Below are positions 3,901-53,800 of a stretch of DNA of 64,000 nucleotides, in pieces; positions within the stretch are counted from its first letter, which is position 1, and every line of letters begins with the position of its first letter. The stretch covers positions 15,294,001-15,358,000 of the forward strand of contig CM068582.1 in the NCBI GenBank assembly GCA_035048485.1, read 5' to 3'. The stretch is from Pteria penguin. Lineage: Eukaryota > Mollusca > Bivalvia > Pterioida > Pteriidae. The position numbers and the translations under genes were made by a program. The notes beneath the pieces are model-generated. The model did not search any database and was not told where the DNA came from. It worked only from the letters and a program-made list of their open reading frames with translations.

Positions 3901-6900
3901 GTAAATTGGATAGTTACATTTTGTTACCATTATATGAAGCATACAGAGAAGAGGTAATATAAAGATAAACATTAACAATTTCTATTTCATTGTTTACTGT
4001 TCAACCCCTCCCCCTCCCTCATCAGAGAGCAGTAGAGGAAACCAGAACACCTAGAAACAATTACTGACTTTCTGCATACACACTGGCAGACCTTGTTCAT
4101 CTTGAGTAGGATCCAAACCTAGACTTGTCAGGGGTGAGACCTTATGGACAGTTTCAGTCAAGCACTTTGACTTACCCAGCTATGAACGTCTCTCAAATAA
4201 TATCCAAAGCAAGTACATATTCCACATAGAGTAATTCCTTTTATGACATTTGTATCTGAATCATGTGAATGAAATTTAATCTTATACATGTTGTAAACAA
4301 AAATTGAACACAAAAATATAGTACATACTTGAGCACAACATAAGCTGATTTCCATGTCTGTCCATATAGCAGAGACAGAGGATCTTGTACCGTCTGTAGG
4401 AGGTGACCACTCAAGGAAGAGGGTGGACTCTGTACCTTGTATAACAGGTGCCCTTCCTTAAAAGCTGAGTCAAAGTTATTGCCCTTGGTGGGATCATCCC
4501 AAAATACTAAGGAATAACAAGTAATCTCTGCGTCAGCACCCTTTAATAATGAGAAATCAGGCAATAAAATCAGACAAATGTACTTTTAAAACGTCAAAGT
4601 ATCAATAAGTTCACAAAAATTGTTTAATCCAAGTAGTATTCAACTCTGTTCTTAATGCTGTGTTGCTGTATCACATTTTATACAGCATTAGTCTACCATT
4701 ATCTCAAGTGTGCAGTGGTGATACATTTTTCCTCATCTAATTCTTCATCGTTTTAAAATTAATAGCCTGTAAGGTTATTTCTGTTCTGATGTTTTTTATG
4801 CCCCTGGAATCAAAAATTTGGGGGCATCTAGTTTTTGGTCTGTCTGTTTGTCCGTTTGTCTGTGGCAAAAAACTTTAACATTGGTTATAACTTTTGATTG
4901 GTAAGAGGTAGGGCTTTCATATTTCACATGTGTATTCATTGTGACAAGACCTTTCCGTTGCTACGATAATATTTCACCTCATGATGTTGACCATGACCTT
5001 TGACCTACATTTCAAAAACCTTAACATTGGGTATATCTTTTGAATGGTAAGTGATAGGGCTTTCATATTTCACAAGCATATTCCTTGTTTTTAGCTGTGA
5101 CACATTCTACACAGAGATGGCAGTGTTGAATATTTTTCATCATTAACAGTTTCAAGTTTTGATATCAATAACCAGTATGGCTGGCCAGACAGGAGATGTT
5201 TACTTCTCCCAGGCAACATGTTCTTCACCCCCGATTTCAAGTAATCATTGAATATCCATGGAGTATGTTGTTATGAGTGCATTAGAGCTGTAGTAACAGT
5301 TCCTTTAAAATTTTGCTTTATGGAATTGTAGCCGAGTAAAAGATAGTCAAATGGATGGATTTCTTTTCAATATCATTATATAGTAGGTAGAGAGACAAAT
5401 AAAAAAAACCCAGATTTTATGAATGCTTGATTAACAGGAGTTGTTAGAAGACAATATAGCTTGCTGGCGGGGCATTGTCAGAGGAAAAGCATGTATTATG
5501 ACCAACGTTAAAGTTTCGAAAAGTAGGTCAAAGGTCAAGGTCAAGGTGAGTAGGCAAAAATCTTTTGTACCAATGAACACGCCTTGTCACAAGGAATTCA
5601 GATGTAAAGTATGAAAGTCCTATCTTATATGGTTGTAAAAGTATAACCCATGAAAACAAAAAAATGGCACCAATACTGGTAATGACAATATAAAGCAAGG
5701 CAACAAAAATGACAATAAAAACAATGGCATAAAAAATAGAGGATGGTATGGTTACCATTACCAAACATATATTTTTCTTGGCCTAAGGAACTTTCTGAAG
5801 TGGAAGTGAAACAACTTTTGTTTGCTTCCTACAGATTATGTCATCATACAGATGAAATCATAAAATTTAATGACATATATCTGACTCACTTCAAACCTGT
5901 ATTCCTTGTTAAGATACTTCCTGAGAGCTATTCTTTGTGTAGTGGCATCGTTAAGTACAGGCACTTTATGTTCAGAAGTCTGATCTACGATAGATTGTAT
6001 GCTGTCAACTATGACACTGCAACAAAAAGCAAAAACATCACCCAATAGACAAACTACCCATGTATCAACTTGTCTTCATATAAATTTTAAAAATATCCAA
6101 TACCATGAAATGGAATCAATGTCATATGTCAAAATGGAATGTAATTAGACAGATCAAGTATGAAAAAAAGAAAGAAATAATTCTTATTTCGATAAGATTT
6201 TTGTCATAAATAAAATAAAATTCCAATGTCAAGGTCAAACATCCAGATAAAATATGAAAATGGCAAATTTTACTTAAGTATATTTAGTATATTATAGTTC
6301 AAGTTGAATGTTGATAATCTAGGCAGTGTACTTATGACATGTAAAAGGTCAGCATATTAACTGAGATAAAATTGACCAGCAAAAATATAATTCAATGGCT
6401 AATTTACTGAAATATAACTGAACAAGATGCTGAGATATTATTTGTCAATATACTGAGATATAAGATGGCTTATTTAGATATAATTCAACTCCATACTTAC
6501 TAAGAGATAACTGAACAGCATACTGAGATGTATTTTGGCATACCAAGATAAATCAATACAGCATACTGAGATATTATTTTACAGCTTTTGAGATATTATT
6601 GTACAGCATATTAATGGTGATATGATAATACAGAATACATGTAGTGAGAAATAATTCAACTCTTTACATAATGAGATACAACTGAACAACATATGTAGCC
6701 ATAAATAACCACTATACATACCGAGATATAATTAGAAACATACTTACTGAGATATATCTGGACAACCTGTAGTGAGCCAATACTGAATCCTCTTGTTAGT
6801 ACATTTTATATGTACGACCTGACTGTCTATGCTGAGCTGAAAATGACAAGTGTATATCAGGTATCAGTATAAAAACTTTGTGATAAGCCGACCATACCTA

Positions 6901-9900: not shown

Positions 9901-12900
9901 TCATATATCACAGTAGTAGCTTGATGAGCACCAATATTTTCAGAAGTCGATCCGCTAACGAGCTCAGAATTTTGACATTGTTCAGCTTCTCTAAGGAGGG
10001 AGCTTTCACCGTCTTCCTTACTAAATTCACTTGAGGTATAAAAATCTTTGTTGACTAGAGACTTTGTACTCATATTTAAATCCACACTTACATTTTCAGT
10101 TGACTTTTGACTTGTATTTGAGCTATATAAATCTATATCCCTTGTATCTAGTGAATTGTCGTGAATATTTGAAGACTCTAACATTGTCTCAGGTTCTTTA
10201 TTTATGGTGTCTTGATCAAAGCTCTTGGTTGTATCATCTTCATGGTGAGATTTTGATTCTAATGTTTTATGTTGATCTACATAAAAATCTGAAGAATTGT
10301 CTGTCAAAATTTCCTTAAGCTTTTGTTCACTACTTAGTCTCAAGTAAAAGGCATTGGGAGATCCACTGTCTACTGAAATTTCTGAATTTTTTCTCACATT
10401 CTCATTCAACCCATCAGTTTCATCTTCATTTTCCTCTTTTATATGTTCATCACAAACAGGTGATTTTCTTTCTTTTCCATTTTTTCGAAATTTCTTCTTT
10501 TTGCCATGTTTCACTTTCCCTTGACCTTTGACCCTAATGACCTGCACGCCTATATTATCCTCCTCCTCTTCCTCTGCTGTCTCTTGTACTAAATTATCTA
10601 GCCTATCCCCTTTGTTCTCCTGTGTACCATGAGAAACAGACTGGGTTTCTATACTATGCACACTTGTTGTTTCACTGTTGTCTGAGGCAGAATGAAGACT
10701 TTCACTAGGTGTAGAACATGCCTATTAGGATTAAAAGAAAACGAAAAAAATTCAAGAATTCAGTGTTTCAATTTGCTGTAGACTTCAACAACAAATCTTA
10801 TTTCAAATTCAGAAAGAAAAGATTTTTTCTTTCATTTTTTTTTTGCTTGCTTGTACTGAAACACTATCCAAGTTCACTGGTGCATATTAATATTGTGACA
10901 AGCAGGAGAATAAGATGTGGCCGGGCTCTTGAATCGAACACAGAACCTACTGCTATCAAAGTGGATGCTCTCACCATTGAGCTATCTGGGCCGACACCCG
11001 TCTGTCACAATCCTCCCCTGCCAGATGCTTCCAGTCCTGTAAACTGAAACACACAACAACCAAAGATCGTAACCCTCACACTGCAAAAACCAATATGTAA
11101 CTCATGACGGCTGGCCACAGCACCAAATATAGCAGGGAGGAGAAAAAGATGTGACCGGACCCGTGAATCGAACGCAGAACCTTCTGCTATCAAGTCGGAT
11201 GCTCTCATCATTGAGCAATCCGGGCCAAAACCCATCCGTCGCAATATATTCATGAGTGTTCTGGTTCATATTGATATATTAACTAAATTACTATTTCATT
11301 TTAATATATCACCAAAATTCTTTAGCATATATTGATATATCACCTGAATTCTGTAATATATAAGGATATAGCAACAAAGTTCTCTAGCGTATATTGATAT
11401 ACAGTATACTGATATACTAATCAAGCTCTCTAGTGTATATTGATATATTACCGGAGTTCTCCAGCATTTATTGATATGCAGGTATGTTACCTGAATTAAC
11501 TTTTATATCGATATATAATCAGAGTTCTCTAACCTATATTGATATATCTCTAGAGTATTCTGGCATATACATGTATTACAATATTGCCGGAGTTCTAAAG
11601 CATATATCACCCAAGTTTTCTAGCATATATTGATATATTAAGTGAGTTCTCTGGCCTATATTGATATATTAACTGAGTTCTTTGGCATATATTGATATAT
11701 TACCTGAGTTCTCTGGTGTATATTGATATCTCACCGAGTTTTCTGGTGTATATTGATATATTACCTGAGTTCTCTGGCATATATTGATATATTAACTGAG
11801 TTCTATAGCATTCATTGATATCTCACCCAAGTTCTCTGGCATATATTGATATATTAACTGCGATCTATAGCATTCATTGATATTTCACCCAAGTTCTCTG
11901 GCATATATTGATATATTACCTGAGTTCCCTGGCGTATATTCATTTTGATATATTACCTGAGTTCTCTGGCGTATATTGATATATTACCTGAGTTCTCTGG
12001 CGTATATTGATATATTACCCGAGTTCTCTCGTGTATATTGATATATTACCTGAGTTCTCTGCATTATGTTACATGACATGACACTGTCCATACTACATAA
12101 GGACACTCTGTCATCATCTACTTCAGAGTTAGTACGAGATCTACTCCTAGGGGGCACTGTTCCAATGTCCAAATAAGGTTTATCCTAAAAGTAAGACATT
12201 CTCAATATAAAACAGACAGTATAATTGCAACTACATGATGAAAGGTGACTTGTGTCAAGTTTTCTTACTTCATCCTAACAAACAGTAAATCTGCAAAGTT
12301 CTTTTGTGTTTAAATGTGTGTGTACATTCAAATGCATGTCTTCACACATATTGAACAGTTGTTTTGGTGGTCTTTTTATACATAGAAATATATGAATCAC
12401 TTTTTCAATAAAAGTATGATTATCATTTCAGAAACAGAAATGGAAATTTAATAATACTTTGAAACAGGGTTTTAATTCCCAACTCACTATAGCTAACTGG
12501 AAAACAGCATGTTCCAAGCCCGCTGTCAATGTCAGGAGGATGTTGATATTCTGGGTAATGAGAAGAAGACTTAATAGAAAATCATGTGTTAGCATTATTT
12601 ATCCAATAATAATTTGAATTTGAAAATGTGGTAAAATGCTTACTTAATGTATTTGATTATCATTTCACAAAATGTCTTAATGGTCATATTTGTAATTGTT
12701 TTTGGTTGAGTAACATCATATCAGGGTAATCTGTTACAATGATGTCAACTTTCTGATGCACTTCACAAAAATATGAACCACATAGAGGGCCCACCACCCC
12801 CAAGCAGTGAGAGACCTTTTGCATGTCAATGTCTGCTGTGACATTGTACTTCAGTTTCCTGTCTCTCATCCACAAGACAAGAATGAGTTACTGATCAGAT

Positions 12901-18754: not shown

Positions 18755-19037
18755 AACCGGTGTGGCTTAGTGGATAAGGTGCTCGGCTCATGATCGAGAG
18801 GTCCCGGGTTCGACTCCCGCTCTGGGTGCACCGGTGTTGGTGTTCTGTCTTTCGGATAAGACAGTAAAAACCGAGGTCTCGTGTCACGGTAGGCGTGGCA
18901 CGTAATTTAAGATCCCTCGCTGCTTCTGGTGGGTCCGTTGCAAAGGTGTACATTTGTATGCAATGCATCAGACAGATGCCGTCACCATATACGTGAAATA
19001 ATCGTGGAGTGACGTAAAACAATATTCAATCAATCAA
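18755..19037 (+). mobile_element. tRNA-derived SINE, full length, with target site duplication
   Basis: The 5' end folds like a tRNA: A-box TGGCTTAGTGG, an anticodon stem closing a CTCATGA loop, and B-box GGGTTCGACTCCC. A conserved body follows (TGTCTTTCGGATAAGACAG, GATCCCTCGCTGCTTC, GCCGTCACCATATACGTGAA), ending in a TCAATCAATC tail. It is flanked by TCTAATAAAATACGAA at 18739-18754 and the same with one extra T at 19038-19054, which fits target-primed insertion. It is not a functional tRNA gene. Confidence 0.92.
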
Positions 19038-34269: not shown

Positions 34270-35095
34270 AAGGGGTAATAGCACTATGCCACAGTCAGAC
34301 CATTATAAGTGAGATAGGAATGGTACCATGCCATGGTGGGACCGTCCTAATTAAGTGGGCAAATAGCACCATAACATAGTTAGACGACAATAATTGAGAA
34401 AGTAAACGCACAATGCCATAGTCAGACCATTATAGTCGAAGGTGTCAGTAGCATTCTGCTACAGTCAGACCATTATAGGTGAAGGGGTAAATAGTAGCCT
34501 GTTATAGTTAGACCATTATAGTTGAAGGAGGAAACAGCAGCCTGCTATAGTTAGATCATTATAGTTGAAGGGGTCTGTAGCAGCCAGCTATAGTTGGACC
34601 ATTATAGGTGAAGGGGTAAATAGCAGCCTGCTATAGTCTGACCATTATAGTTGAAGGGGTAAATAGTTGCCTGCTATAGTCAGATCATCATAGTGGAAGG
34701 GGTCAATAGCAGCCTGCTGTAGCCAGACAATTATTGTGGAAGGGGTCAGTAGCAGCCTGCTATAGTTAGACCATTATAGCTGAAGGGGTAAATAGCACCA
34801 TGCTATAGTCAGACCATTATAGTGGAAGGGGTCAGTAGCAGCCTACTATAGTCAGACCATCATAGCTGAAGGGGAAAATAGCAGCCTGCTATAGTCAGAC
34901 CATTATACATGTAGTTGAAGGGGGAAGTAGTAGCCTGTCATAGTAAGACCATTATAGTTGAAGGGGTAAATAGTAGTCTATTATAGTTAGACCATATAGC
35001 TGAAGAGGTAAATAGTAACCTGCTATAGTAAGACCATTATAGCGGAGCTGTTTCAATGTAATAATACCCTGCCTATGTCTGACCATTAGAGTTAG
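34270..35095. repeat. 43-bp minisatellite downstream of SCLY
   Basis: About 19 tandem copies of a roughly 43-bp unit with core ACCATTATAGTTGAAGGGGT, then AAATAGCAGCCTGCTATAGT. Copies diverge toward both ends. It lies some 730 bp beyond the SCLY stop codon, so it may be outside the transcript. Confidence 0.88.
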
Positions 35096-35828: not shown

Positions 35829-38800
35829 TCAAGTGTTTTCTTCACATATTAACGAATCTATCGATTGTTTTAAATCAAGCACAACATCGTCTATATCAGC
35901 TAGTGTCGTTTCTCTTCCCACCGATAACCTGATCGCATTCCTGGCAATATTCTCTGGTATACCGATCGCAAGCAAGATTGGTGATGCCCTGTAAACAGAA
36001 AAAAGGTTTCTGAAAAGAAAGATAAAAACAAAAAAGAAATAATCTCCCCCACCCCCAAATCAGATCAGATTAAACATGAAATTCAAGTACTTTAGAGGGA
36101 TGTCTGAAAATACTAAAGTAAATGTGAAATGTATCCCTATTTATTTAGATTATTTACATTTGTTATGCCAGACTACGGTCAAGGTTACAGTAAATTAAAT
36201 ACTGAAGTGTAATAGTAATGATCTCAGTCTTGTCACAATCATTCAGTACACAGACACATATCCTACATCTGTGCCATACATTTACTGCCATACTGGGTTG
36301 AAACGACCAAAAGAAATGTTCTTGCAGACATGTTTACAAAACTCTACATAGGATTGCCATACTGGGTTAAAACACAGGATGAAGCGTTCTTGACATCGTG
36401 TTTACGACAATTATATGCAAGATGTAGGACATGCTCAGGATGATGTCAGATGACGTGCGTGGATCTTTCACTAAATATCTAGAATTGCACTGTTTAATAA
36501 CAAGAGAAGGGTCTGCATTAAATAATTCACTCAACATGTTTTTTTGTTTTAATTTTCAGGGTAGTTACTTTCTAAGGGACATAAAAATGCATTCCTACTG
36601 TCCACAGTGACTGTGAGGTGAAGGGCAAAGTTAGCAATGGTTTCCTTCAAAGAGAAACTGGTTTTCTATCCTCTCTTAGATATACTGGTACGTTGTACAT
36701 CATCATTACATTCTTATACATTGTATTATGATCAACAACAGCTATGGAAACATGGATAGTATGTAATACACAACCATCTTTGCAGACAAGACCAAAACCA
36801 ACATGCTTTTCGAGATCGACATCACTCTGGACAACACTTCACCTGGACTAGGTTCGAAACTTATTTTCAACCCATGTCACAGACTACTAAATCTGAATTT
36901 GCTAAAGTGTACTTCAAAGAGGATCTGGTTATTAATCCACCTTGGTACATTGTAGGTCATTCTTGCTTGAATATCAACAACCTGGACAACATTCCATATG
37001 GTCAGTACATAATACTCATGGATCATCATAGGCCAGGCCATAACCAACAAGGATCATCACAGGACAGGCCATAACCAACATACTCAAGGATCATCACAGG
37101 ACAGGCCATAACCAACATACTCAAGGATCATCACAGGACAGGCCATAACCAACATACTCAAGGATCATCATAGGCCAGGCCATAACCAACAAGGATCATC
37201 ACAGGACAGGCCATAACCAACATACTCAAGGATCATCATAGGCCAGGCCATAACCAACATACTCAAGGATCATCACAGGACAGGCCATAACCAACATACT
37301 CAAGGATCATCATAGGCCAGGCCATAACCAACAAGGATCATCACAGGACAGGCCATAACCAACATACTCAAGGATCATCATAGGCCAGGCCATAACCAAC
37401 ATACTCAAGGATCATCATAGGACAGGCCATAACCAACATGCTTTTCACAATCTAATACCTACCTGCGACAACCTGGACAACACTCCACAATCTCTGTACT
37501 TTTTCATATTAACAACAATTCACACAACAATCCACCAAAAAAGTTTCACCAGTTCTCACACAGAAAACCAACATGCATTTTTTCACAATTTATAACAGAC
37601 AAGACAATGCTTCACTTGAACAGTCCATGATAACCAACATGCTTTTTGTGATGTCAGCAAAGCAACATAATGATTCTTTATAGATAATAGTCTGGACAAC
37701 ACTTAGACTCCTTTGGAATAGTACATGCCCTATTTATCATCACAGTAAAAGCTGTAAGTAAAATGCTTTCCAGGATTTACTGCAGCCTAAAACACACTCC
37801 ACCTATATACTTTATGATACAATGATTCTTTTGCAAACTGCTGAAATCCAACCCTATCACTACCAAGGACTTCGTTGATGATTAACCACTGTCCACATTC
37901 TCTTATCCAGTCACAATTTTCAAAATTTTAATAGAAATCTGTAAATAAAATAACCTCTTTTCATTACAAATACCCTGTAAACTTTACTGCAGAATGCCCT
38001 CAGATTTTAAGGAGGTACTTCTTATGAAAGGAAAGATTAATCTACTCCCTGTTGAAATTTATGCAAAAATACTACAGAATTAAAAGTTCAACTCTCCAAC
38101 CCACAGAACTACAAAATGAACAAGCTGTATTTGTGAAACACTAATGCCCCCGGTGACACCAAAGTCCAAGTTAATTTTAGCCTGAAGGTCATTGTCAAGG
38201 TTAAAAGGTCATCGACCTTGGTGTCACTAGAAAAGGCTTCATTAGTTGAGTATGCATGTCAAATATGAAGTCTCTATCCCTCATGGTTCAAAAGTTATAG
38301 GCAAGTTTAAAGTTGACAACAGACAGACAAACAAACAAACAGTCAAGACAAAAACAATATGCCCCCGATCTATTGATTCGGGGACATAAAAATTCAACCC
38401 TCCAACCCCCCAAAAATCAAATACCAAAAAAAATTAATATATGATTACAGATAAAACCCAACCAAGTTAGTGACACCCTGCTTTACTTAAAACTAAACCT
38501 CCAAATACAATACCGCAACCAAGAAAATTGTAGGGATGATGTGATTTAAACCGGCAACTAGCTTGCAGTGTTCCAAGGAATACATAGGTGATGTAGTGAA
38601 GGTTAGAACAGGTACAGAGACAGACAGACAGTCAAAGTAATCTCTAAGTGCCCTTTTTCCACATGCAACGAAATGAAAAGTAATAATTTCAACATAATAG
38701 TTTTTTTTAACATTGTCTATGAATGAATGACGTACTTTAAACATTTTGAGCAGTGTAGCTCCGTGGGTGAGGTGCTTGATTTGTGACTTAAAAGTTCTGA

Positions 38801-41800
38801 GTTTGACTCCTACAGTGGGCACACTTGTATTCTGTCTTTCGGATTAAACAATGAAAAACAAAGGTCAAAAGCAAGTGAGGCTCGCTATATGAAGTGCTTG
38901 CCTCATGACCGAGATGTCCTGGGTTAGACTCCACTATTGGGCATGGAGTGTCTTGTCTTTTGGATCAGACAATGAAAATCAAGGTCCCAATGTCACAGCA
39001 GGCATGGCATGTGAAAGATCCCTCACTACTTGGGTGGGTCCATTGCAAAAGGATAAATTTCTGTAAATGCCATCAGTATATATATGTAATAATCGTGGAG
39101 TAAGGTAAACAATAATTATTTAATTAATCAGTTAAACATCTAACTCAAATTCTTTTTGAGACCTAATTTAGTGCTGGAGGACAAGTCTTGGAGGACGTCT
39201 TGAGGGAAGATAATTCAAGAATACCCAATATCACCCTCCAGATTATATACGTGTAGAAGTACCAGAAAATCTGTTTAAAAAGAGAAAATTACAAGTGAAT
39301 TTTGTATGTCAAGAGCTTCCTCCCAATTCCATTCATTTGTATGAAATATCCTCTAACAAACATCAACAGTTTTACCAAAACTTGAAGTGGAAATATTCCT
39401 GAGCAGTTTGCCATCGAATACTACCCTGCATTGTCTCTGGATAGTCTGTCTGGCTTTGAATACTGTACTCAGTCTGTAGTAATCAGCTGTATAAACACCT
39501 TTCAGATTTTTACGTCAGATTTCATAAGACTGAAGAGACCAGATATATCGAGATGAGTCCGAAATTGCTGCCACACTGGAGCATATCAACCAACTGAGAT
39601 CAAACAACTGAAGTTACTTACAATGTGTCAGTTTTTGTTATTTTAGAAAAGGAATACCTGTTCTGTGCATGGCATGCTGCTCCAACACTGGCTTGTAAAA
39701 TCTTACAACGAGAAAGTACTTTATGCCCTGAAATTAATGAAAGGTCAATTGATTAGTGTATTTAGTATTTACAGCATAGAGAAAAGAAAAATTCTGTCAT
39801 GAAAGCATAATTTATTTGGTGATTCTGGACATTTTCAAGAATTTTATATTCATGCTGCAGCTGAAATATTCATGTAAATCCTAAAATGAATATTTCAGTA
39901 TATAAACATTCATTCATTATTCATTTATTTTTTTCCCATATGAGATCATAATACAAAAACATGTACATGTAAAAACATATGTAAATAAGAGAAATATGAT
40001 TATCATTGACTTTCAAATATAGAACATATATACAGATATGTACATGTCAATTTGCTGTTTACTATGAATTGCTTCCTGATTGGTTCAATGTGTCTTATAC
40101 TTGAACCAATCAAATATTATCTTTTAAGCCCAGTTTTGAATTGTATGAGAATCACAAAGCTATGACATTATGAAGTGTAAACATGTAGAGCCTATTCTTT
40201 CTCCTTCCAGTATTGTACATACGGATTACATGTCCAAGATTAAGGTCACCAGATAGACAAGAGGCCCAAATGGGCCTATATCGCTCACCTGAGCACAAAT
40301 TGCCTATTTACAATAAAATGACAGCTCATTTCAGTAGAAAATTTTGCTTTTTTTCTACAAGACTTTCTATAAGGTTTGGTGATATTTTGTGCAGTCGTTT
40401 TGAAGAAGTCCAAAATGTGTTAACCAATCAGAGCCAATGGTGGCCATCTTGGATTACGAATGGGCATGAAAAACACAAATTTGGTAGAGGACCTTGAGTA
40501 CTTACTTCCTATGAAGTTTGGTGGAATTCTGTGCAGCGGTTCTGGAGAAGAAGTCAAAAATGTTGAAAAGCTAACGACGGACGGACGGCAGACGACGATT
40601 GATCACAAAATCCATGGTACAAAATGAACCTGGGTCCAGAAAGATTTGTATAAGTGACTTCCAAGTTACAAGTTAAACTCTTGACCTTCTCATATCTCAC
40701 TCAAATAAATCCTACTGAATCATAATATAGAAGAATACCCACAGTACTGTGCTTACAATTCTAATTGTAAGCAGAATATGTTGTTTGTAGTGTAAACTCT
40801 TGGAATTAAAAATGCAATACAAATATAACCACATGTAGCATCATTTGCATTTCTTTAGCTGCAAGTCCTGGCCCTTCTTGAATGATAGGGCAACAATTCC
40901 TTACGTTACGTAAACTTGCAATTTTGATAAACGGAATGTCCGGCATGACTGTAGTACTATGGTACCAAATGGAACAAATATCAAACATATACAAACATAA
41001 AGCAAACGATTGGTAATAAAAACTTACCCATGACCCGTTGTCTGAAAACTCTACACACATTTTTCCCTAACCTCTCAAATTTCCCAGTTTGTTTATATGT
41101 CGTCTGAATTATACACACATTTGCATGATTGCATCTCATGGACAGATTCAAATGTGTGGATAAGACTATGTATAAACAAGTCGGCAAATATGACACAAGT
41201 TGGGGAATAATATGTGTAGAGCCTTCACATGATGGATTGAGGGTAAGTTTTTATTGCCGATGGATTGCTTTGTATTTACCGTATTTACTCGAATATAATA
41301 TGCACTTTTTTTTGCCAATTTGACCCCTCATTTTCTCACTGCATATTAAACATAGGGTTGGAAATCTGGAAATTTTTTCCATGCCTTTAAGCTTCAGAGG
41401 CAGATTTAGAGGGGTGTGTGTGTCCGTTAAAGTATCTAAAGCCATCAATCAAACCCAGGAGGCGTGAGATATATCTATTGCCTGTATACTGTCTGCTTCC
41501 CGTAGTACATGCCCAAGGTGATAACAGGAGTAATGTCTACAGTGTGTCATTCAATGAACACGACAGAATGCATGCGCTGTGTTATTTAGCAAAGGTCTCT
41601 GATCAGCAGATTGTACAGGTGATATAATGATTTATCCTTGATTGATAGTTACGTAACAGGTGAAACTACTTGACTGTAACGGCACGAGCATCGACAGTTT
41701 GGATAACACTCATTTATTCATTCTTCATATATTTTGTCTTCACAAACATTTGCGATCTCCGTGTTAAGTTCACCTATATAGTACACATGCACGTTCATTC

Positions 41801-44800
41801 TAACGAGAGAGTAAAAAATGAAGTGATCGTCTGGGACGAGGGTACTAGTTAAGACATTTAAAGTCTATGCGAGTTTGATTGTAAATGAAATGAAAGAGAG
41901 AAAAGCGTTGATATCACACAATGAATAAAGGCTGGTCGTTCTGTGCCGCTTTTGATAATAATACACGTTACACAATTACACTGTAAAAGGTATACGGCAA
42001 AGCAATTTCAGCTCTCGGTCTTGCTACTTCAACACAAAATTGACATCTTGTTTTGGATTTTTCCGTTTTTTCATGATTTTTGGGGTCATTTTTAGGGGTG
42101 TATTATACTTGGGTGCATATTATATTTGAGGAAATACGGTATATATGTTTGATTTTTGCTCCATTTGGTTCTGTGATACGAAGAATCATGCGGAACATTC
42201 CGTTTATCAAAATTGCAAGTTTACACAAAATAAGCAATTGTGGCCCTATCATTCAAATAGTGCCATGAATTGCAGTGAGCATTTCTATATTTACACAAAA
42301 ATATTCTATAACAATATGTTTACTTTCTTCATACTGAACAATAGAAACTAAAATACCTTGTAGTTTGTCCCCAATGAATGATACATTGCAGGTGTTAGGA
42401 AGTCGCTCACTTTTGGGCAGCTTTCCATTGAAATGAACCTGTCCTTTAAATGTATCCTTTTGAATAGAAAATTAAAATATACCTATAATAATACTATTAT
42501 TACTTTCCTGAGTAGATTTAAAAAATCTAATTAAAATAACATGTCAAACAAGTCAGATATCCACTTGTATGTACATGCACTGCCTGGAATGAATACATAT
42601 CAATCTTGATAAGTTAAACTTAAGGGTTCAATTGTAACTAGAAAAGTCAAATACCATTAATGGCAGCAAAATTGTACAACATCAAATTTAGTGGTAGGCT
42701 CAGCATGACCTTCACCTTTGATATGACCTTAGGTCAAAGTTCTGTCAAGGGTTACAATCATATGAAGCAGATCAATGTTTGTTTTTTAAACCAGACAACA
42801 TTTTAGTCCATGGATTCAGTGTGAAGTTAACTTTGGAGCTATGATCTTGGCTCAAAGTCATAATACAAGGATAAAAAGTATGTGAACTATGAAGCAGATC
42901 AACAGTACATAGCAGATGTATATTAATGACAAAGAAGTTTTTATAACTTCCTCAACAGATGGACAGACAGACAGGGTGATTCATTTATATCCCCAAACTT
43001 CATTTGTAGGGGTTTATAATCAAAGTTATCAAAAGCCTGACTTAAATGTAAAATTGATTTCTAAGAACTTTAAAACTGATTACTCATAATGTTTCCATTA
43101 TCATACAAAAAACTCATTTCTACAGTCCTGATTCAGATTTACCTTACTATCATCAAAAAGTCTAACACCTGATAATTCCTAATATACTTCTTATTGGTCC
43201 CTTGAAGGTGGAGTTACAGAGATTGAGTAGGACTTAGAACCTTCAGTACAACTGGAACACAGCTAGCACATTCTATACACATCTACTCATAATGCTCTTT
43301 CTCTGTACCAAGTGTGGTCAAAATCCATCACAGGATATGGAAATATCACGACAGACAGTTGAGACAAATTTATAAGGCAGAGTACCTGTAATTTCTGTTC
43401 CACATAGTCTCGGACGAGACACAGATGTTGACTGTATTTGTCTATGTTGTTTACAACCAGTTCAGCTGCCTTCAAAAGCAATGAGATATTTCATTATGGC
43501 AGTATGAAAATGAGTATGAATGTGTGTTTTACAAATAGCTGTGTCAGGTTTCTCAAGATCTTTGAGCAAATGTGTGACTGGGTGTTCAAATCTTGTCTGT
43601 AACCATGGTGACAGTGGGAGATCTTTGGGTAGACTTCTTGATTTCAGAACCAGTAAAACAAACTGTCAAAACAAGGAATGCATACCATGATTTTGAATAG
43701 CCAGTCTAATAAATTCATACTCTGAGACTAAAAGGCCAGGTTGAAGAGTAAAGAAACACTCTGTGAAAAAAAACCTAAGATTTATTTCAATAAAATATCG
43801 CAGTATATTTTTACAGAGTATAATGTATGTGGCATGTAAAGGAAATTGTTATCTACTGTTGTTGGACAAAACGTCCAGTACTTTTATGTATCTAGATATG
43901 GCCAATTCAACTTAATTAGTAAATTAACATCCAACTGGGTCAACAAAAAATATGGGGCGGGTGGGAGACTTTTATTTTTAATTTTTTAGCTTCCTGACAA
44001 AAATATTCATGACAAAAGTGTTTTTGTCAACAGATGGGTGTCATATAATGCCCTTATTTTAACAGAAGGATGTCAAGTTGTATTTTTTCATAGATGGAAT
44101 CAAAAGTATAACTACCGGATTTGTACATGAAAAATTTTCAGAAATCGTAAATTTTGCCAAAATAAAACAAAATAGGGGTGGACCGATTTTTGAGGGGTGG
44201 GTGGGGATGATAATCTATCTATTAATTTGAAATGGCCTATACTGAGAACTTATATTTTAACTCCACCTAAAGAAACAGATGAAACATAAATCATATCAGA
44301 TGCACTTACTTTGCCAAGCCCTGCTATCATCCCTGTGTTTTCTGTCCTTTATAAATAAATCATAGAGGTAGATATTAAATACATTCAACATATTAAAAAA
44401 CAGTTTGTACCTCTATTGTACATAAATACATTGTCTTGTGAGTAAAGAGAGAAGTAAACGTAGTATAAGCATAGCATAATTTCACAATTTTTTTTTTTTA
44501 AAGTACATCAAAGTTGAATGTCAAGGTCACAGGGTAAAAAATTATGGTAGCAACAGAATGAAGTTGTGACAAGGATTTAACATGGAAATATGAAAATGCC
44601 ACCTTACGCAGTTAAGAAGTTATAAGTAAGGTTAAAGTTTTTGATCACAGACCACAACAGTGCTGATATCAAGGGCATGACAAGTTCTCCAAACATTCAG
44701 TTCCAGTGAGCTAAAAGCACAAACACAGAACCCTAAGTACTCTTCTCACAAAGACTATCAATTACTGTGGGATGCATCATATATTAGACTTGTCATACAA

Positions 44801-47800
44801 AGCTTAAGGCTGCCATCAACCAACACTCTGGTTGCTATTTCAGAAAACATTCTCATAGTGAGTAAATGTCAAATATCTATCATTCAAGTATTACAAAAGT
44901 TTTTGTTTCAGATACATGTGAAAAAAGTCATACATTTTCTGTATTTTATAGAATTATTCATGGTTACACTTATTCCATGTAAAATATATACATGCTGTAC
45001 AAACACAGTGTTGGACTAACTTTAGAGAGGATTGACTGACAGAATAATTGATTATTGTTTTGCATAGATTACTGGACCAAAGCAAATATGAAGGTGGTCC
45101 CTTCCTTGTGGATTTGTGTTTTTTTTTTTTTTACTTCTGCAATAGACCCCACTCTAAGCAGTGAGGGGATCCATAATATATCAACTATTTCTAGTATATA
45201 ACACCTCAGATTTTATTGCCAGATGGATAGAAACATAAAAGAGACTCTAATGGGATTTTGAACTGAGTTAGGCTGGCCTCTTTGAATGAGATAGCACCTT
45301 ACAGAGTGAGGTAAATCTATTTCTGGATAAATGACTATCTGATAAGCTGAAGCTAACTTATAAATTGACTTAAAAATTGACTCTGTTAAGTTTTGAATTT
45401 AATCCAAATCGGACATCATACCCTGATCTGTAGTTTCTTTCTTGGCCTCCCCCGTAAAACATGGGGTACAGTGGTACCACTTTAGTGTCCAGATCTCTTA
45501 TATAGATTGCTCCAATTCTGGGCCCATAAAACTAATCATAGAAAAGTAGAAGGATGCAAAGTTTAGTAGATAAAAAATAAATTTTGCTTCATAAAAATAT
45601 CTTAAATGTATGATGAAGTAAGACAGATAACACTCAAAATAGAAAATGTTTTACAAAACTGCAAAATTATATAATAATACCATATTTATATTAAATTAAT
45701 TCAAGGAAACCATATTGGACAGAACTTAAAATCAATCCATGAAGAACAAAAATTTTCCCAATATACATGTACCTAAAACTCCCAAACAAAACAGAATTAT
45801 CCTTACATGACTTCGTCATATGGCTGAGTCAGATGTCCTTATGTTTTCTTTTATATCTACACTTACACTACACCTCTCAAGTGCAGTGTGGAGCTGGTAG
45901 AACAATTCCCTACGCCTGGGTGTTCAGAGTGTTATTATTCTACTCTCAGGTAAATGACTTTGTTGTGTGATAATTTTTTAGGCTTTTTGTCTGTGATAAC
46001 TTTTGTCATAAGGTTGATGAGGTTGATATCTTCATGCTTTCTTTTACAGGACAAATACCCCGGCATCAACACATTCCTGTGACCTTGACCTTTGACCCCA
46101 AAACAAAAGGGATCTTCCTTTTATCATGGGCATCATATACGCAAAGTGTCAAGATCATAGGGTGTAAAAAGCTATTGATTTATAATTTGTAAATACTCTA
46201 TTTTCAAACAGATAAACATAGTGAAACCAGTACACCTCATGTAACTTTGCTGGTGGGAGGTGTAATAAAACTAAATCCTATTTTACATAAGAAACTTATA
46301 ATTAATTAATCTAAGACATTACCTTGTGTCCTACAATGGTTAGATAGTCCGCACAAAGGTCACCAACATCAACATCTATCTTTCCTAAAGCCTGAGCCGC
46401 ATCAGTATGCAGGAGTATCACAGGCTCGTGCTTTCTGCTCCGGTTTAACTTGGACACCTTTTGGAATATTTCTTTCACAGGCTACAAAGAGAAGCAATAA
46501 TCCCTTGTAATGATGTAGTATAAATCATCTGTTTTCATTTAATTGCTTTATTATGATTATAACTCATAATACACAAATAGCACTAATAATTATACACTTT
46601 ATTAATGATTATAATGATGTATAAATGTTTTTCTTCTTAGGATTCAAAAAAGCAAACAAACAGAAATTTCTCTATGGTCGAAAATAGCAGTCATGCAGTC
46701 AGAGAATTGTAGTTTTGCCATTAGACCCGTAATATTCCTAATAAACTGGCCATATTTCTTCAGGCTGGTAAAAGTTAGAAATCCTAGGCTTAGCTCTCTT
46801 CTGCAATAATATAATCTGAATATTTTTTTGTTATTTATCCTTGAACTATGCCTTTTCATTAAAACTGTTTGTTCCAATATCACTTCATCCTCCTCAAAGC
46901 AATTAAAGTTTTAGAGAAGGGACAAGGAATAACAATTCTCTCACTCCAAACAAAATTATCTACATGTTCATTTGCTTAGGGACCACTGACTCATACCCCT
47001 GTATATTCCAAACCACTGATAAAACCACAATGCATAAACAATATCAGAAATACAGGAACTGCACGTGTCAGCTCTATATAAATGGGTGAGAAAAAAATAT
47101 GCCATTATCAATCTCTACTTTGCACATGGACAAAGAAATTCCATCCTTTTAACAAGGACCTGAATCATTCAGGTCATAAACTGCAAGTCTTCAGTAATTT
47201 CCCTTTCCCTGTCAGAAGTGTTTTTTGACTGTAATATCAAAGAAATCAATCAACACAGAATATGGAAGTTGTCAAGAAATGAGATAAAAGGAAAGTAATG
47301 GATAAATCTTAGCCACTGTTTATATTCTTAACATCAGAATGTGTTTGAATGCCTTAAACATGGAGTTTTGCCTTACCTGTAGAACACCTGTCTCATTATT
47401 GGCTAACATAACTGAGATCATACAAGTTGAAGGTCGTATGGCAGCTAATACATCATCACTTGCTACACATCCTGTCTTTGGAGAAGCTGGTACAAATGTA
47501 ACACCTGTACAGGCAAGACAAGCAATCAATGAAGTACAAAAGTGGAGCAAGGGTCATTATCAGAACAAAATTTGCATCTCTTCAAAATGCAAATAACAGT
47601 TCCAACTATCCAGCAAAATCAGGTGAATACAATAATAGATAAATTAAAGTAGTTATTTTTCTTGCAGGGATTTGGTCCATATATTTACTTCTTTTTTCAC
47701 ACCAAGATTATTTCACTTAAGACTGTGAAAGCCTCTGTCTGATGTATAGCATTGAAGTTTTGAGGTATGCAACAAACCATTCCAAAGACTGATTGATTAA

Positions 47801-50800
47801 TTTTTGTTTTATGCCACTCCATAATTGATTCATGTAAAAGGTGTCGGGATCTGCCTGATGCATAGATATCTTTAGTTTTGCAATGGACCCTCCCAAAGCA
47901 GTCAGGGATCTTTTACTTGCCAGGCTTACTGCAACACAGGACCTCGGTTTCTACTGTTTCATCAGAAAGGTAGGACATCAGTTCATCTATGAAGGGAGCA
48001 AACCCAGGCCTCCCGGTAACGAGTCGAGCACCTCATCTACTGGGCTACACTGGCTTCCATTCCAAAGAAGTGAGAACATATTGCAGTGCCAATGTCTACC
48101 ATGACGCCATTTTACTGTATTATCCAAAAGACTAGACACCAATAAGCCACCAGGGGACACACTTGGTACCAAACAAAAGAAAACTTTACTTGTACGGTAT
48201 CACCACAACACTTCCTAGTTATCTTTTCTGACAAGAATTCATCACTAGGATAGAGACTTGAGAATATATCAACCAAACATTTGTTAAAGTCAAGTCGCGA
48301 TAACTGAAACTCAGAAGGACTACGGAAAACAAACCACTTGAGAAAAATTTGATTTATGATGTATATTTATGTTAAGAAATTAGTGTCTGGACTTGAAAAT
48401 TGGTCTGAATCAATTGGAAATTTTAGTTATCAGAGTTATAGTAAATGTGAGTCATTTGGTTGCAATATCTGTACATACGTGCAGTTTATTTGGTCAAGTG
48501 CTACACAACATTGCTATAAAAACTAGATCTCTTTAATAAACAAGGGACAAACATAAAACTGAATTGGATTAACATATGGCTACAGGGGACTTTAAATCAG
48601 ACTGAAGATGGCATTCTTACACTAGAAGCCATGCTAAATGTAATTAAATGTAATAATATCTATAAGTGATTTTATCTATATCAAGTGCTATTGCAATCTC
48701 ACAAGGAAGACAAAATTGAAAACCTGATTCCTTTCTAGTGGCTTAGGTCAAGAGGAAGAGATGGGAAGCAGAGTACAGAGATGGTATCAATTTTGAAGTT
48801 AAAATGGTATCAATGGAACCATATGTGTTTGTGAAACACTGATGCCCCTGTATGGCATCAATGCATGAACTATCTCAGAAATGGTATGAAATGGAAGATT
48901 TTATTACAAGAAATGACCAAGATATTGTATCTAGGCCCCATCTCTAGCCAATACAAAAGTTCTGGTAAAGGATCAAGTTTGCAGATGGTTGGATAAATAA
49001 ATGGACATACAAATGATTAAACACAGACACAACAAAAATGTATGTATATCCAATTCTATGGCCATAAAATGTCTTTTTTAACCTATTAACTGGCTTAGAT
49101 TGATTAGAAAAATTAATCCCATCTCTCCTATGATTTTGTTTGCAGGAGTTTAATGAAATCTGGATTATTTCCTTATAGTAAAGAAAGATTACATATTTAA
49201 TACAATCAGTCCTACATACTGGCTATTCCTTCCTCGGCGAAGTTCTCCAGGACCAGTTTTACTGCATCGTGTTCCAGATTAGTGGTGATAAAGTGTGGAA
49301 GAACCTCTCCCTTATCACCAAGGCCTTGGTGATTCAGACCATTGGAATTCTTCATTTGGAACGCATGGAAATACTTGACAGCAGTGTGGAGAATCATGTT
49401 GTTGCCCTGTATAAAGTAAAAGCGAATATAAGAGTAATAATATACAGAGAAAGGAGTAAGTTGTTGATTTTTTTTTTTTGAATAACGTTTCAAAACCTTT
49501 TTTTTCAACTCAAACATCCGGCGACATGTCAATTTTGATGGGCATCGTCTCCAAGATGAAGAGCATCATATCAGTACATCATTTGGGTTGGACTAATGCG
49601 ACTGGGTGTATTTCAAATAATTTTTCCAGTAAAATTAATTTTACAACTCCCTTATATGTTATGACTGGCCTTACATCATTTTACTATTAGTTCATCATTT
49701 TCTATCAAACATATTATGAGATAATAGGAATCATCAATTTTTTTTTTCAGAGATATCTATAATTACTTTGATTAAAGTCTTTTCTTTTTGGCTTGATTCT
49801 TGATCTCTGAATCTGGAGCCAAGCTCTTAACTGATAGAGCTATGTCAGTATCATAATAATCTGAAAGAATAGGCCATGGTGTTCTTTGCTGAAAGTTATG
49901 ACATATCATCTTGGAGAAATGTTAGAAATAACAGTTATACCCAAGTTTGAATAATGTCTTGAAATCCATGTCTTAATGATAAACAAAGATTGCTTATTCT
50001 AAAGAAACAGCAAACAAATTTTTAAGGCCACTCTATTGAAAGTACAATGTACTGGAAAAGTCTGATATGTTTTCGTACATACATGCATCTATAGTTCAAA
50101 TAAATGACAAAAGAACTGATATAGCTGTGTCAGAAGCATGCTTGGCTCATGCTTGAGAGGTTCTAGGTTCAATTCCCTCATATGGTTCATCTTTATCGTT
50201 CAGATGAGACAATAAGGCTAAAGGTCTGATATGGCAGTAGACAAGACACATAAAATATCCATCAACACTCCAGATGGGTTCATCGCATACTTTGAGTTTC
50301 TGTACAATGCATGGAGTCAATGCTGTCACCATATAAGTGCAAAAACATAGGTATGATCATGTAATACTACAACAAATCAAATAGCAGAAGGAGAAGAAAA
50401 AAAAAAGTGAAATTGTGTTTGTGAGACACTAATGTCCAAGACAGTAACTAGGTAAAGAAGTCCTTTTGCCAAAAACAAACAGATAAAAACTATATGACTA
50501 TATGCCTTAGGTTTTTCCCTTTCTTTTAAGGGGCGTAAAAATATATTTCACAAAGAAAAAAAAAGGAGTAATCTCCTGATCCCATTTATGTGCTGCATTA
50601 CACTATACAAACACCATCATTTTTTCCATATTAGAAAAATTGAGAATCAGAAAATCAAAAACATTATATGTAGACAGGATGGCTGATACCTATGTACCTT
50701 GTCAGTAAATCATTACCTCTGTTCCTCCTGATGTGAAAATGATGTCTGAAAATAATAAAGAAAATCCCATATGATGTACAACTGAATATAAATGAGGAAA

Positions 50801-53800
50801 TTAAAATAGGGGTCTTCAACGTTTGTTGTCAATGATCATCTCAATGTTTAGTAATAATTATAAACTGACGAAAAAATAAACTTCACATATTTTGTGAATT
50901 TGAAATCCAGAGCCTAATTATACCTGCATTAAACATCATTAACCAAAACAAACTATCCACATATGTTATCAACAATTACCCTTCAAGAAGACATTAATTT
51001 GTATTGTTTACAACCATATACATATACTGTTAGTGGTAAATACTCTACAGAGTTTATGTTTGTTTGTTAACTTGCATACATGTTGATTCAAAATAACATT
51101 CACTTAGTGACTTAAAATTAAACATCAACAGAAAACAGGAATTATTAAATAAACTTGTTTGTTTGCTCAATACCACCTTTTATCCTTTTTTATGTCTTTA
51201 TCTGAGTCATACATTGCATGAAGTACTATATAGTTGAAAGATCATTGCTCCAGAGTAAGAAAGGAAAGATACTGACAAACAATTGAAATTGTATCTTTGA
51301 AGTGAATGGAACAACACATGAGTTATCTATATATCATCCTTACTAAACACTAGACTTGCCTCTTACCTTACTAGCCACTAGACTTGCCTGTTAACTTTAG
51401 TAAACACTAGACTTGCCTCTTACCTTACTAAACACTAGACTTGCCTCTTACCTTACTAGCCACTAGACTTGCCTGTTAACTTTACTAAACACTAGACTTG
51501 CCTCTTACCTTACTAGCCACTGGACCTGCTTGTTACTTTACTAAGCACTGGACTTGCCTGTTAAGTTAACTAAACACTAGACTTGCCTCTTACCTTACTA
51601 GTCACTAGACTTGCCTGTTAACTTTAGTAAACACTGGACTTGCCTGTTAACTTTACTAAACACTAGACTTGCCTCTTACCTTGCTAAGCACTGGACTTGC
51701 CTGTTAACTATACTAAACACTAAACTTGCCTGTTAACTTTACTAAACACTGGACTTACCTGTTACTTTACAAAACACTGGACACTAGACTTGCCTGTTAC
51801 TTTTGTAAACACTGGACTTGCCTGTTACTTTACTAAACACTAGACTTGCCTGTTACTTGACTAACACAGGATGTGGTTGTTACTTTACTAGACACTGAAC
51901 CTGCTTGTTGCTTTACTGAACACTGGACTTATCTATTAACTTTATTAAACTCAAGACTGGCCTGTTACTTTACTAAATACTGGACTTGCCTGTTAGCTTT
52001 GCACCAATCATATCTGCTATGTGACCCCTTGCCTCTACAATCTGACTTTTGGCCTCTATGCCTAAAAAGGTAAAATTTCCATAAATGTTAACTAATGCTT
52101 TATATTACATTCTGAAAATAGTTCTTTGGATTGACTTGAGGATAGATTTATTTAATGTGGCTGTTTTCATCTGAGTGTTTTATATTCAGCATTATCATGC
52201 CAATGTATACATGAACCATAATGGTTGATTGATTATTGTTTTACATCACTCCATGATTATTTCATGTACACGGTGATGGCATCTGCCTGATGAATCGCAT
52301 AGCAATTTTTACATTTGCAATGGATCCATTGGAAGCATTGAGGGAGCTTTTATGTGCTACGCCTACCGTGACACAGGACCTCAGTTTTTACTGTCTCATC
52401 TGAAAGACAGAACAGTGGTGTGCCCACGGCAGGAATCAAACCTGGAACCTTTTGGTTACAAGCCCAGCACCTCATCCACTGGGCCACACTGGCTTGAACC
52501 ATAATGGGTTATATCAGGTATATATGGGGTATATTTACCCAACATCTCTTGTGAAGAAACATACTCACAGCAAATGTAAGCACTTTTAACATGTTAAAAT
52601 AAAGCTTCAACAATTACTATTAAATTCAAGCACTTTTCAAATTGTTTTAATTTCCAAGCACTTCAAGAGGACTGAATCTAAATTCACGCACTTTTACAAA
52701 TGTCTGTGCCTTCCATGAAAGTCTGCCAATTATTAACTTTGTGATGCTAGATTCCCTATTTGACAAATGATTCATAGAAACCTAAACCATAATGAGATAA
52801 TCCATTTCCCACAAAATCAATAAAGCATCATAATGTTTGACAAGCAGAACTTCAAAGGATTTAAACAGGAGTTAGTTTTCCAAAGTTCCAATAAACAAGA
52901 AGCAATTTTGCATGTATATTTGATTGTCCTCAGCCATTTGAAACAAAATAATTACAAACCTTGTTGATACGAGCTACTTGGATTACCCCATGCTGTCTTC
53001 AAAGCCGATGTTATGGAGTGTAAAACTTCCTCGTCTAGGGGTGTGGTAGCATTGAAGTCTAGATACACCCTCCTGACAACACACAACAAGGTATCATTGC
53101 TATTGTACACAAGGATATGAACAGGTATGCATTTTATTACATAAATTGATTGGTTACTTCAACCTGAGGAGAGATCGGGCTAAGGGAGTCAACTTAATCT
53201 GACAATAAAAAATATCTATGCAGTATGTATGTATAAAAATTCCATCTCTTAGAAGTTTTTTTTTTTCTAAATCATTGACATTATGCTTCATACAAAGGTT
53301 ACTTGACATGACCAGTGTCCGCGAAATTCATCGGACCGAACGGACAAAAGTGCGATCGGTCCGATTTGCACGTTTTCTAGCCGGACCGTTTGTCCGATGT
53401 TGCTTCCAACACTATGTATACCACAGAAAGACGGAGTCTTGCAAGCAATTATACTATTTAATAACGACCTTTACATTTTGAGCGTTCCTGAGTGTACATG
53501 AATGTCTTTTCTAGCGAAATTAAAATATGTGGAGGGGGCAATCCCTGGAAAACCACTAAACAAAAGAAAATTGACATCGACGGACGCCAACAAAAAGGCG
53601 ATGTTAAATACCCCATTGAAAATTCTTCAATTTTCGTTTTTGGTCAGACAGAAATGATTTCGGTCCTATGAAATATGTCTTCCAATAGGACCGAATGTCC
53701 TGTGGAGTTCAAAAAAGTTTTGCGGACACTGCATGATATGTAAAATACGAAAATAACTGGTGTCACATGACTATGGCACTAACAACAATGTACCACAGTG

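Follow-up and report, generated by a model that had tools for sequence, protein, structure and literature searches.

A minisatellite abutting the putative GC splice donor of SCLY exon 3 in Pteria penguin, with similar arrays at the donors of other genes

The window, by which we mean the whole 64-kb stretch of Pteria penguin DNA that was analysed, carries SCLY and a PLEKHM2-like gene on its minus strand (Table 1), together with a third gene that we take, from its motifs, to encode a short-chain dehydrogenase. Eleven coding exons of SCLY share a single open frame; no exon 1 was found. The protein is about 70% identical to the SCLY of Mytilus and oysters and falls beside the oysters in the tree (FastTree support 0.872). 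Two SCLY exons are very short, exon 4 and a 37-nt exon at 44310-44346 (minus strand), and skipping either shifts the frame.

Table 1. Features at the SCLY locus, in the PLEKHM2-like gene and in three genomic loci; a slash marks an exon-intron border
Feature	Position	Strand	Basis or score
SCLY coding exons, 11 in one open frame	39658..53072	-	exon joining, 1089 nt
SCLY exon 2	52960..53072	-	gene model
SCLY exon 3, 72 nt; last 11 nt (52000-51990, AAAGCTAACAG) belong to the first repeat unit	51990..52061	-	
SCLY putative authentic donor, GC dinucleotide, CTAACAG/GCAAGTCC	51988..51989	-	join restores conserved frame
SCLY 28/29-bp tandem array, about 23 units, most repeating the region around the exon 3 donor	51338..52000	-	TRF and unit parsing
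Strongest decoy donor, CAG/GTAAGT, first intron base 51758	51753..51761	-	U1 dG -12.1 vs -7.4 for the exon donor
Six AAG/GTAAGAGG (AAG/GTAAGA) decoys, first intron bases 51679, 51593, 51508, 51451, 51423, 51366	51359..51682	-	dG -9.5 each
SCLY exon 4, 29 nt, acceptor TTTTCAG/ACATC	50717..50745	-	
SCLY last exon	near 35990-35850	-	
PLEKHM2-like gene	17.7 to 1.0 kb	-	protein relatives, exon map
PLEKHM2-like exon DKPYLDIGTVPPRSRSRTNSEVDDDRVSLCSMDSVMSCNIMQRTQ, ending ATGCAGAGAACTCAG/GTAATATATC, donor first base 12049 (CAG/GTAATA)	12050..12184	-	
Second donor-spanning array, 31 bp x 14.7, units AGAGAACTCAG/GTAATATATC with variation	11602..12064	-	TRF
EED array	L042, about 4352-4713		homology of joined exons
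RAVER-like array	L034, about 3237-5103		homology of joined exons
CUB-domain gene array	L044, about 4327-5882		homology of joined exons

Nine of the ten introns between the SCLY exons are GT-AG, and intron 3 (51989-50746, 1244 nt) is GC-AG. Human SCLY matches the gene at E 1.5e-119, and when exons 3 and 4 are joined at the GC donor the product aligns with it without a gap over 17 residues across the junction, in line with the gene identity and the junction that a sequence-only reading of this DNA had proposed. The junction motif is present in 113 of 120 SCLY relatives, and the segment there has the same length in 109 of the 113; the four exceptions are three C. gigas X2 models that are six residues shorter and one protein that is a residue longer. 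The X2 models (Crassostrea/Magallana gigas; P0021, P0022, P0023) are missing the residues SDIIFN precisely where exons 3 and 4 meet, a pattern that would fit an acceptor 18 nt further downstream. We rejected an in-frame donor inside exon 3, ATTG/GTGCAA, which keeps the phase but deletes five residues; it looks very weak by eye and fell below the listing thresholds of our donor scoring.

GC-AG introns make up 0.983% of introns in animals (PMC7072748), and the other positions of GC donors match the consensus closely (PMC2490688). The exon 3 donor, CAG/GCAAGT, is likewise near consensus apart from its GC and is paired with an AG acceptor, as expected of a U2-type GC-AG intron. Its U1 pairing (-7.4 kcal/mol) ranks third among the 11 SCLY donors, so the earlier description of it as a weaker site holds against the GT copies described below and not within the gene. 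The accessible portions of three accounts of the GC-AG class (PMC7242645, PMC2490688, PMC7072748) make no mention of tandem donor copies downstream, which SCLY has.

TRF reports the SCLY array with a period of 28, 23.1 copies and 78% matches over 51340-52000, as well as 57- and 85-bp higher orders, of which the 85-bp row starts at 51338; this bears out the proposal of a GC donor in the first unit of a 28-bp array of about 23 copies. The array edge lies 11 nt inside exon 3, where the exon tail AAAGCTAACAG matches the unit sequence AAAGTTAACAG at 10 of 11 positions, indicating that the repetition crosses the exon edge. Outside the array, only 4 of 126,680 11-mers on both strands match the unit as well as the exon tail does. 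With the exon donor included, the array holds 11 copies of CAGGCAAGT, 17 of AGGCAAGT, six of AAGGTAAGA and one of CAGGTAAGT (51758); CAGGCAAGT occurs nowhere else in the window on either strand. The array had no match in a phage collection, and at the search sensitivity used it occurs once in the 838-Mb genome (49 contigs).

We defined a donor-like site as a G before GT or GC with a U1 duplex of -7.4 kcal/mol or lower; the scores use a PWM for donors and a U1 5'-terminal sequence, both entered by hand. The array contains 19 such sites including the exon donor, eight of them GT, against 6.2 +/- 2.1 (maximum 14) in 500 dinucleotide shuffles. Seven downstream GT sites within about 625 nt beat the GC donor on both U1 energy and PWM, as anticipated from sequence, and CAG/GTTCAG at 51900 (-7.7) does so by energy but not by PWM. 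A single perfect CAG/GTAAGT had been noticed and is indeed present, while the AAG/GTAAGA copies, put at about eight, number six. We rejected masking of the decoys by RNA structure, as the local unpaired probabilities of the exon donor and the decoys overlap.

Reading on from exon 3 gives GKSSI and then a stop at 51973, as had been foreseen, and because of this immediate stop any array donor beyond it yields a truncated product whatever its phase. It had also been argued that a 28-nt unit must shift the frame. The truncation stands, but the units are mostly 28 or 29 nt long, and decoys at 51821, 51758, 51614, 51593 and others keep the phase by length, all of them beyond the stop. One degenerate unit contains a minus-strand AATAAA poly(A) signal at 51946, 43 nt after exon 3; unless U1 binding holds it in check, this signal could cause premature polyadenylation.

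Donor-likeness is not proof in itself, since repeated donor-like sites also occur in two other arrays of the window. One is a 30-bp array at 599-767 with five GT donor-like sites on the plus strand. The other, at 11602-12064, has nine sites at -7.4 or better and, when followed up, proved to be a second donor-spanning array, with the PLEKHM2-like donor at 12049 within its first unit; the end of that exon and the start of the next are both in phase 0. Counting copies of each donor's own -11..+11 sequence (22 nt) at 17/22 or better in the next kb gave 19 at SCLY 51989 and 15 at PLEKHM2-like 12049. None of the other 28 donors among the 30 tested in the window (11 of SCLY, 15 of the PLEKHM2-like gene and four of the presumed dehydrogenase) has downstream tandem copies, and none of 26 acceptors of SCLY and the PLEKHM2-like gene has upstream copies; for the PLEKHM2-like gene and the presumed dehydrogenase, splice sites were located by visual inspection. 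When six arrays are placed at random, the probability that at least two fall within 15 nt of a donor is 0.003, a value computed after both cases had been seen and for six larger arrays chosen by hand, with 599-767 and low-complexity runs left out. Two further long minisatellites lie near the 3' end of SCLY, at 34414-35042 (43 bp x 14.5) and 37012-37439 (37 bp x 12.1), at none of the mapped splice sites.

We also searched the 838-Mb genome for three copies of CAGGTAAGT separated by gaps of 15-45 nt. There are 348 matches, about twice the 155 obtained with the backwards motif; both are counts of matches clustered in arrays, not of arrays, and the 155 mean that a motif without meaning is also often found in tandem arrays. 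The matches listed, in genome order and fewer than the full 348, comprise 15 distinct arrays, all of which were fetched (L032 to L046), and three of these start at donors supported by homology, in EED, a RAVER-like gene and a CUB-domain gene (Table 1). The EED exon alone matches an EED chain at E 5e-14, behind a top WD-repeat protein at 2.6e-19; with the exons joined, EED is the top match at 3.3e-33, ungapped across the junction. For the RAVER-like gene, E falls from 0.0048 for the exon alone to 3.5e-16 on joining, with one 1-residue gap just after the junction. The CUB exon alone gives a Pfam value of 0.0033, under the cut-off, and also matches cubilin at 8.8e-9; on joining, the Pfam value is 1.2e-7 and the match covers profile positions 8-110 of 110. 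Joining lengthens a query and by that alone raises its score, so continuity at the junction counts for more than the E-values.

The array edge coincides with the donor itself in EED and the RAVER-like gene and lies 27 nt inside the exon in the CUB gene. Close copies of the donor's own -11..+11 sequence at 17/22 number 40 in the CUB gene, one in EED and none in the RAVER-like gene, which has 16 at 16/22. In EED and the RAVER-like gene the exon junction itself is thus repeated only loosely, though the units carry donors, and this weakens the claim of recurrence. The next acceptor lies 593 nt beyond the array in SCLY, 395 nt in the RAVER-like gene, 1,883 nt in EED and 569 nt in the CUB gene; in the PLEKHM2-like gene it lies 881 nt beyond the array and 547 nt from a further degenerate stretch. 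The putative authentic donor is GT in the four genes other than SCLY, and SCLY is the only one of the five with a GC.

Eleven of the 15 arrays (L032, L033, L035-L040, L043, L045, L046) were neither tied to an exon by homology nor classed as a coding repeat, and edge-to-donor offsets across the 15 show no clear common phase. A Pfam scan of the open reading frames at the array edges covered 14 of the 15 loci, L039 having none to scan, and gave no convincing family for L032, L033, L036-L038, L040, L043 or L045. Weak matches were to Integrase_H2C2 in L035 (0.0025, residues 27-57 of the open reading frame) and DUF7023 in L043 (0.026); L046 has a plausible candidate small exon with 11 copies.

The closest known system is human ABCA7, in which a VNTR at exon 18/intron 18 (25 bp x 23.7 in the reference) has the authentic donor as its first two bases (PMC5954066). 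Splicing from the donor of the next unit has been observed there and shifts the frame, with retention of one unit at 2 +/- 1%; the VNTR is polymorphic in length, and greater length raises skipping of exon 19 (PMC5954066). In brain, the other ABCA7 isoforms together can exceed the canonical one (PMC5954066), so such arrays are not necessarily harmless. As in ABCA7, the SCLY array abuts the exon and its first unit supplies the putative authentic donor. This arrangement is found in SCLY and in the PLEKHM2-like, EED, RAVER-like and CUB-domain genes, where authenticity is judged by protein homology, and repeat units carrying potential donors were found for the SCLY array and for the one at 11602-12064. 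SCLY differs from ABCA7 in several respects: its donor is GC with stronger GT decoys, where that of ABCA7 is GT, a feature that we do not take as essential; its unit includes the last 11 nt of the exon; several genes of the same genome show the pattern; and for ABCA7 the length polymorphism and its effect on exon 19 skipping have been measured.

Other known repeats at splice sites are less alike. A tandem duplication across an intron-exon boundary that has been described is a single event on the acceptor side that made a new intron, unlike the roughly 20 duplications on the donor side of an existing intron in SCLY. Repeats of 4-30 bp occur at or near the borders of all 213 introns examined in another study (PMC11782384), but these are pairs read as marks of insertion, whereas the SCLY repeat runs head to tail for about 20 units at the donor only.

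We consider it probable, at roughly 70%, that the SCLY array arose as a minisatellite when the 5' splice site of exon 3 was duplicated in tandem, that the first donor is the one mostly used while the decoys leak, and that the process is recurrent. The seed would have been the last 11 nt of exon 3 plus about 17 nt of intron, and a duplication across the 5' splice site would be tolerated because the first unit still supplies the original junction; later growth would add intronic copies. The spliceosome would then mostly pick the first, exon-abutting GC donor, a choice suggested by the open frame of the gene, the immediate stop after the donor and the ABCA7 precedent. Later units would act as decoys, leaking at some rate into transcripts in which a stop follows five additional codons and which nonsense-mediated decay would probably remove; because the SCLY decoys are stronger than the putative donor, the leak may be higher. 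The PLEKHM2-like, EED, RAVER-like and CUB-domain genes would be further cases. The frame that stays open over 11 exons and the conserved protein obtained on joining at the first array donor speak for this reading, as do the repetition across the exon edge, the copies found at two of 30 donors and at none of 26 acceptors, the random-placement result, the genome-wide excess over the backwards motif and the ABCA7 precedent. Counting against it are the seven GT decoys that beat the GC donor on both scores and the five donor-like sites of the array at 599-767, which has no known exon.

The direction of seeding may be questioned. A minisatellite born in the intron could have reached the exon edge, with a chance donor-like unit replacing the old donor. 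The final two codons of exon 3 (L T) are those of the 29-nt unit type in frame (TTA ACA), and among 109 relatives L is found at that codon in none and T at the next in four. The proximal units are also more diverged (mean pairwise identity 0.663 vs 0.805), so that the junction-proximal end is not obviously the youngest, although the trend along the array is not significant (Spearman 0.13, P 0.54). Yet a unit would need to carry a donor by chance, at about 3% per unit, and to do so in several genes; elsewhere on the gene strand of the window, donor-like sites at -7.4 or lower number 60, about one per kb with true donors and the second array included. We therefore regard an origin within the intron as unlikely.

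The sequence-only reading had suggested a possible function, with the array as a U1-binding platform or a tunable switch for selenium recycling. In its general form, the competition between the GC donor and the GT decoys would be selected and would tune SCLY output, with U1, an SR protein or array length as the means. Such a switch is in keeping with the seven GT sites that lie within about 625 nt and are stronger than the donor, GC donors are tied to regulated splicing in let-2 and ING4 (PMC7242645), and the three of 113 motif-bearing relatives that lack SDIIFN (C. gigas X2) suggest that splicing here may be flexible in other bivalves. Predicted accessibility, on the other hand, does not separate the exon donor from the decoys, and the similar architecture occurs in four unrelated genes whose putative donors are GT. 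We know of no role in selenium metabolism for the PLEKHM2-like, EED, RAVER-like or CUB-domain genes. With four such genes, general duplication of donors is a simpler cause than a selenium switch, for which we found no support, and a selected switch of any kind seems rather improbable.

We give little credence to the view that the decoys are the dominant donors and that SCLY is poorly expressed or decaying in Pteria penguin. Both scores do favour 51758 and the six AAG/GTAAGA sites, but all 11 exons that were found are open and have splice sites, and the protein retains its high identity to the bivalve SCLY sequences. Moreover, the ABCA7 units repeat the GT donor with slight variation, and yet one-unit retention there is no higher than stated above (PMC5954066).

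Human UBC has tandem AGGT dual-specific splice sites, and tandem repeats have been proposed from it as a route of gene-structure evolution (PMC10809524). The SCLY repeats likewise carry AG/GT motifs, but in UBC the repeats are coding and intron length equals a whole number of units (PMC10809524), whereas the SCLY array is intronic save for 11 nt, its acceptor lies outside the array rather than in another unit, and its 1244-nt intron is not a multiple of the unit. Stepwise removal of the SCLY array through units whose AG/GY serves as both acceptor and donor, regenerating the first donor, is very improbable: AG/GYAAG is present in most units, and introns spliced at dual-specific sites are 8.4-fold enriched in tandem-repeat genes (PMC10809524), but by eye no polypyrimidine tract precedes the units, and with the acceptor 593 nt beyond the array the intron length is not set by the unit.

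Returning to seeding from the splice site, donor-spanning VNTRs (ABCA7), GC donors and tandem AGGT sites (UBC) are already known; what is new is that the donor here is a GC with stronger GT copies and that a single genome shows the pattern in five genes. Among the open-access literature matches listed, judged by titles and the starts of abstracts, the only donor-spanning minisatellite that we noticed was that of ABCA7, though to be missing from such lists proves little. More tentatively, and somewhat short of even odds, 5' splice sites may be preferred birthplaces, or preferred surviving sites, of minisatellites. In that case dozens of genes would have arrays that begin at an authentic donor and hold many competing donors, through which introns would still be growing and alternative 5' splice-site use arising in a general way, SCLY being the example with a GC donor. 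Splice signals may in this way give rise to repeats, which in turn supply genes with rival splice signals; this touches the old questions of how the spliceosome chooses among near-identical donors and how introns lengthen. A real donor followed by 10-20 natural copies, some of them stronger, offers a ready-made competition experiment in vivo. Should donor-seeded minisatellites form a class, they would tie repeat mutation directly to splicing variation and provide an evolutionary context for the disease-linked ABCA7 VNTR.

Several repeats met in the course of the analysis deserve mention in their own right. The Rfam scan of the window gave only two tRNA-like matches, at 18756-18827 (plus strand, 35.1 bits) and 52421-52493 (minus strand, 32.7 bits), the second in SCLY intron 2; both are possibly tRNA-derived SINEs. 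In L035, a 45-bp repeat (sense 4548-5223) is open as 15-aa units (YYMGHNKSYDQVSQQ) and carries CAG/GTAAGT, and may be coding or intronic. L041 contains, on the minus strand of the locus (sense 4164-4700), a 54-bp repeat with seven exact CAG/GTAAGT copies. Judging from its open frame alone, this is apparently a coding 18-aa repeat (TGxTPCxxPCNTGKSYC), and it is possible that it forms a UBC-like dual-specific splice array.
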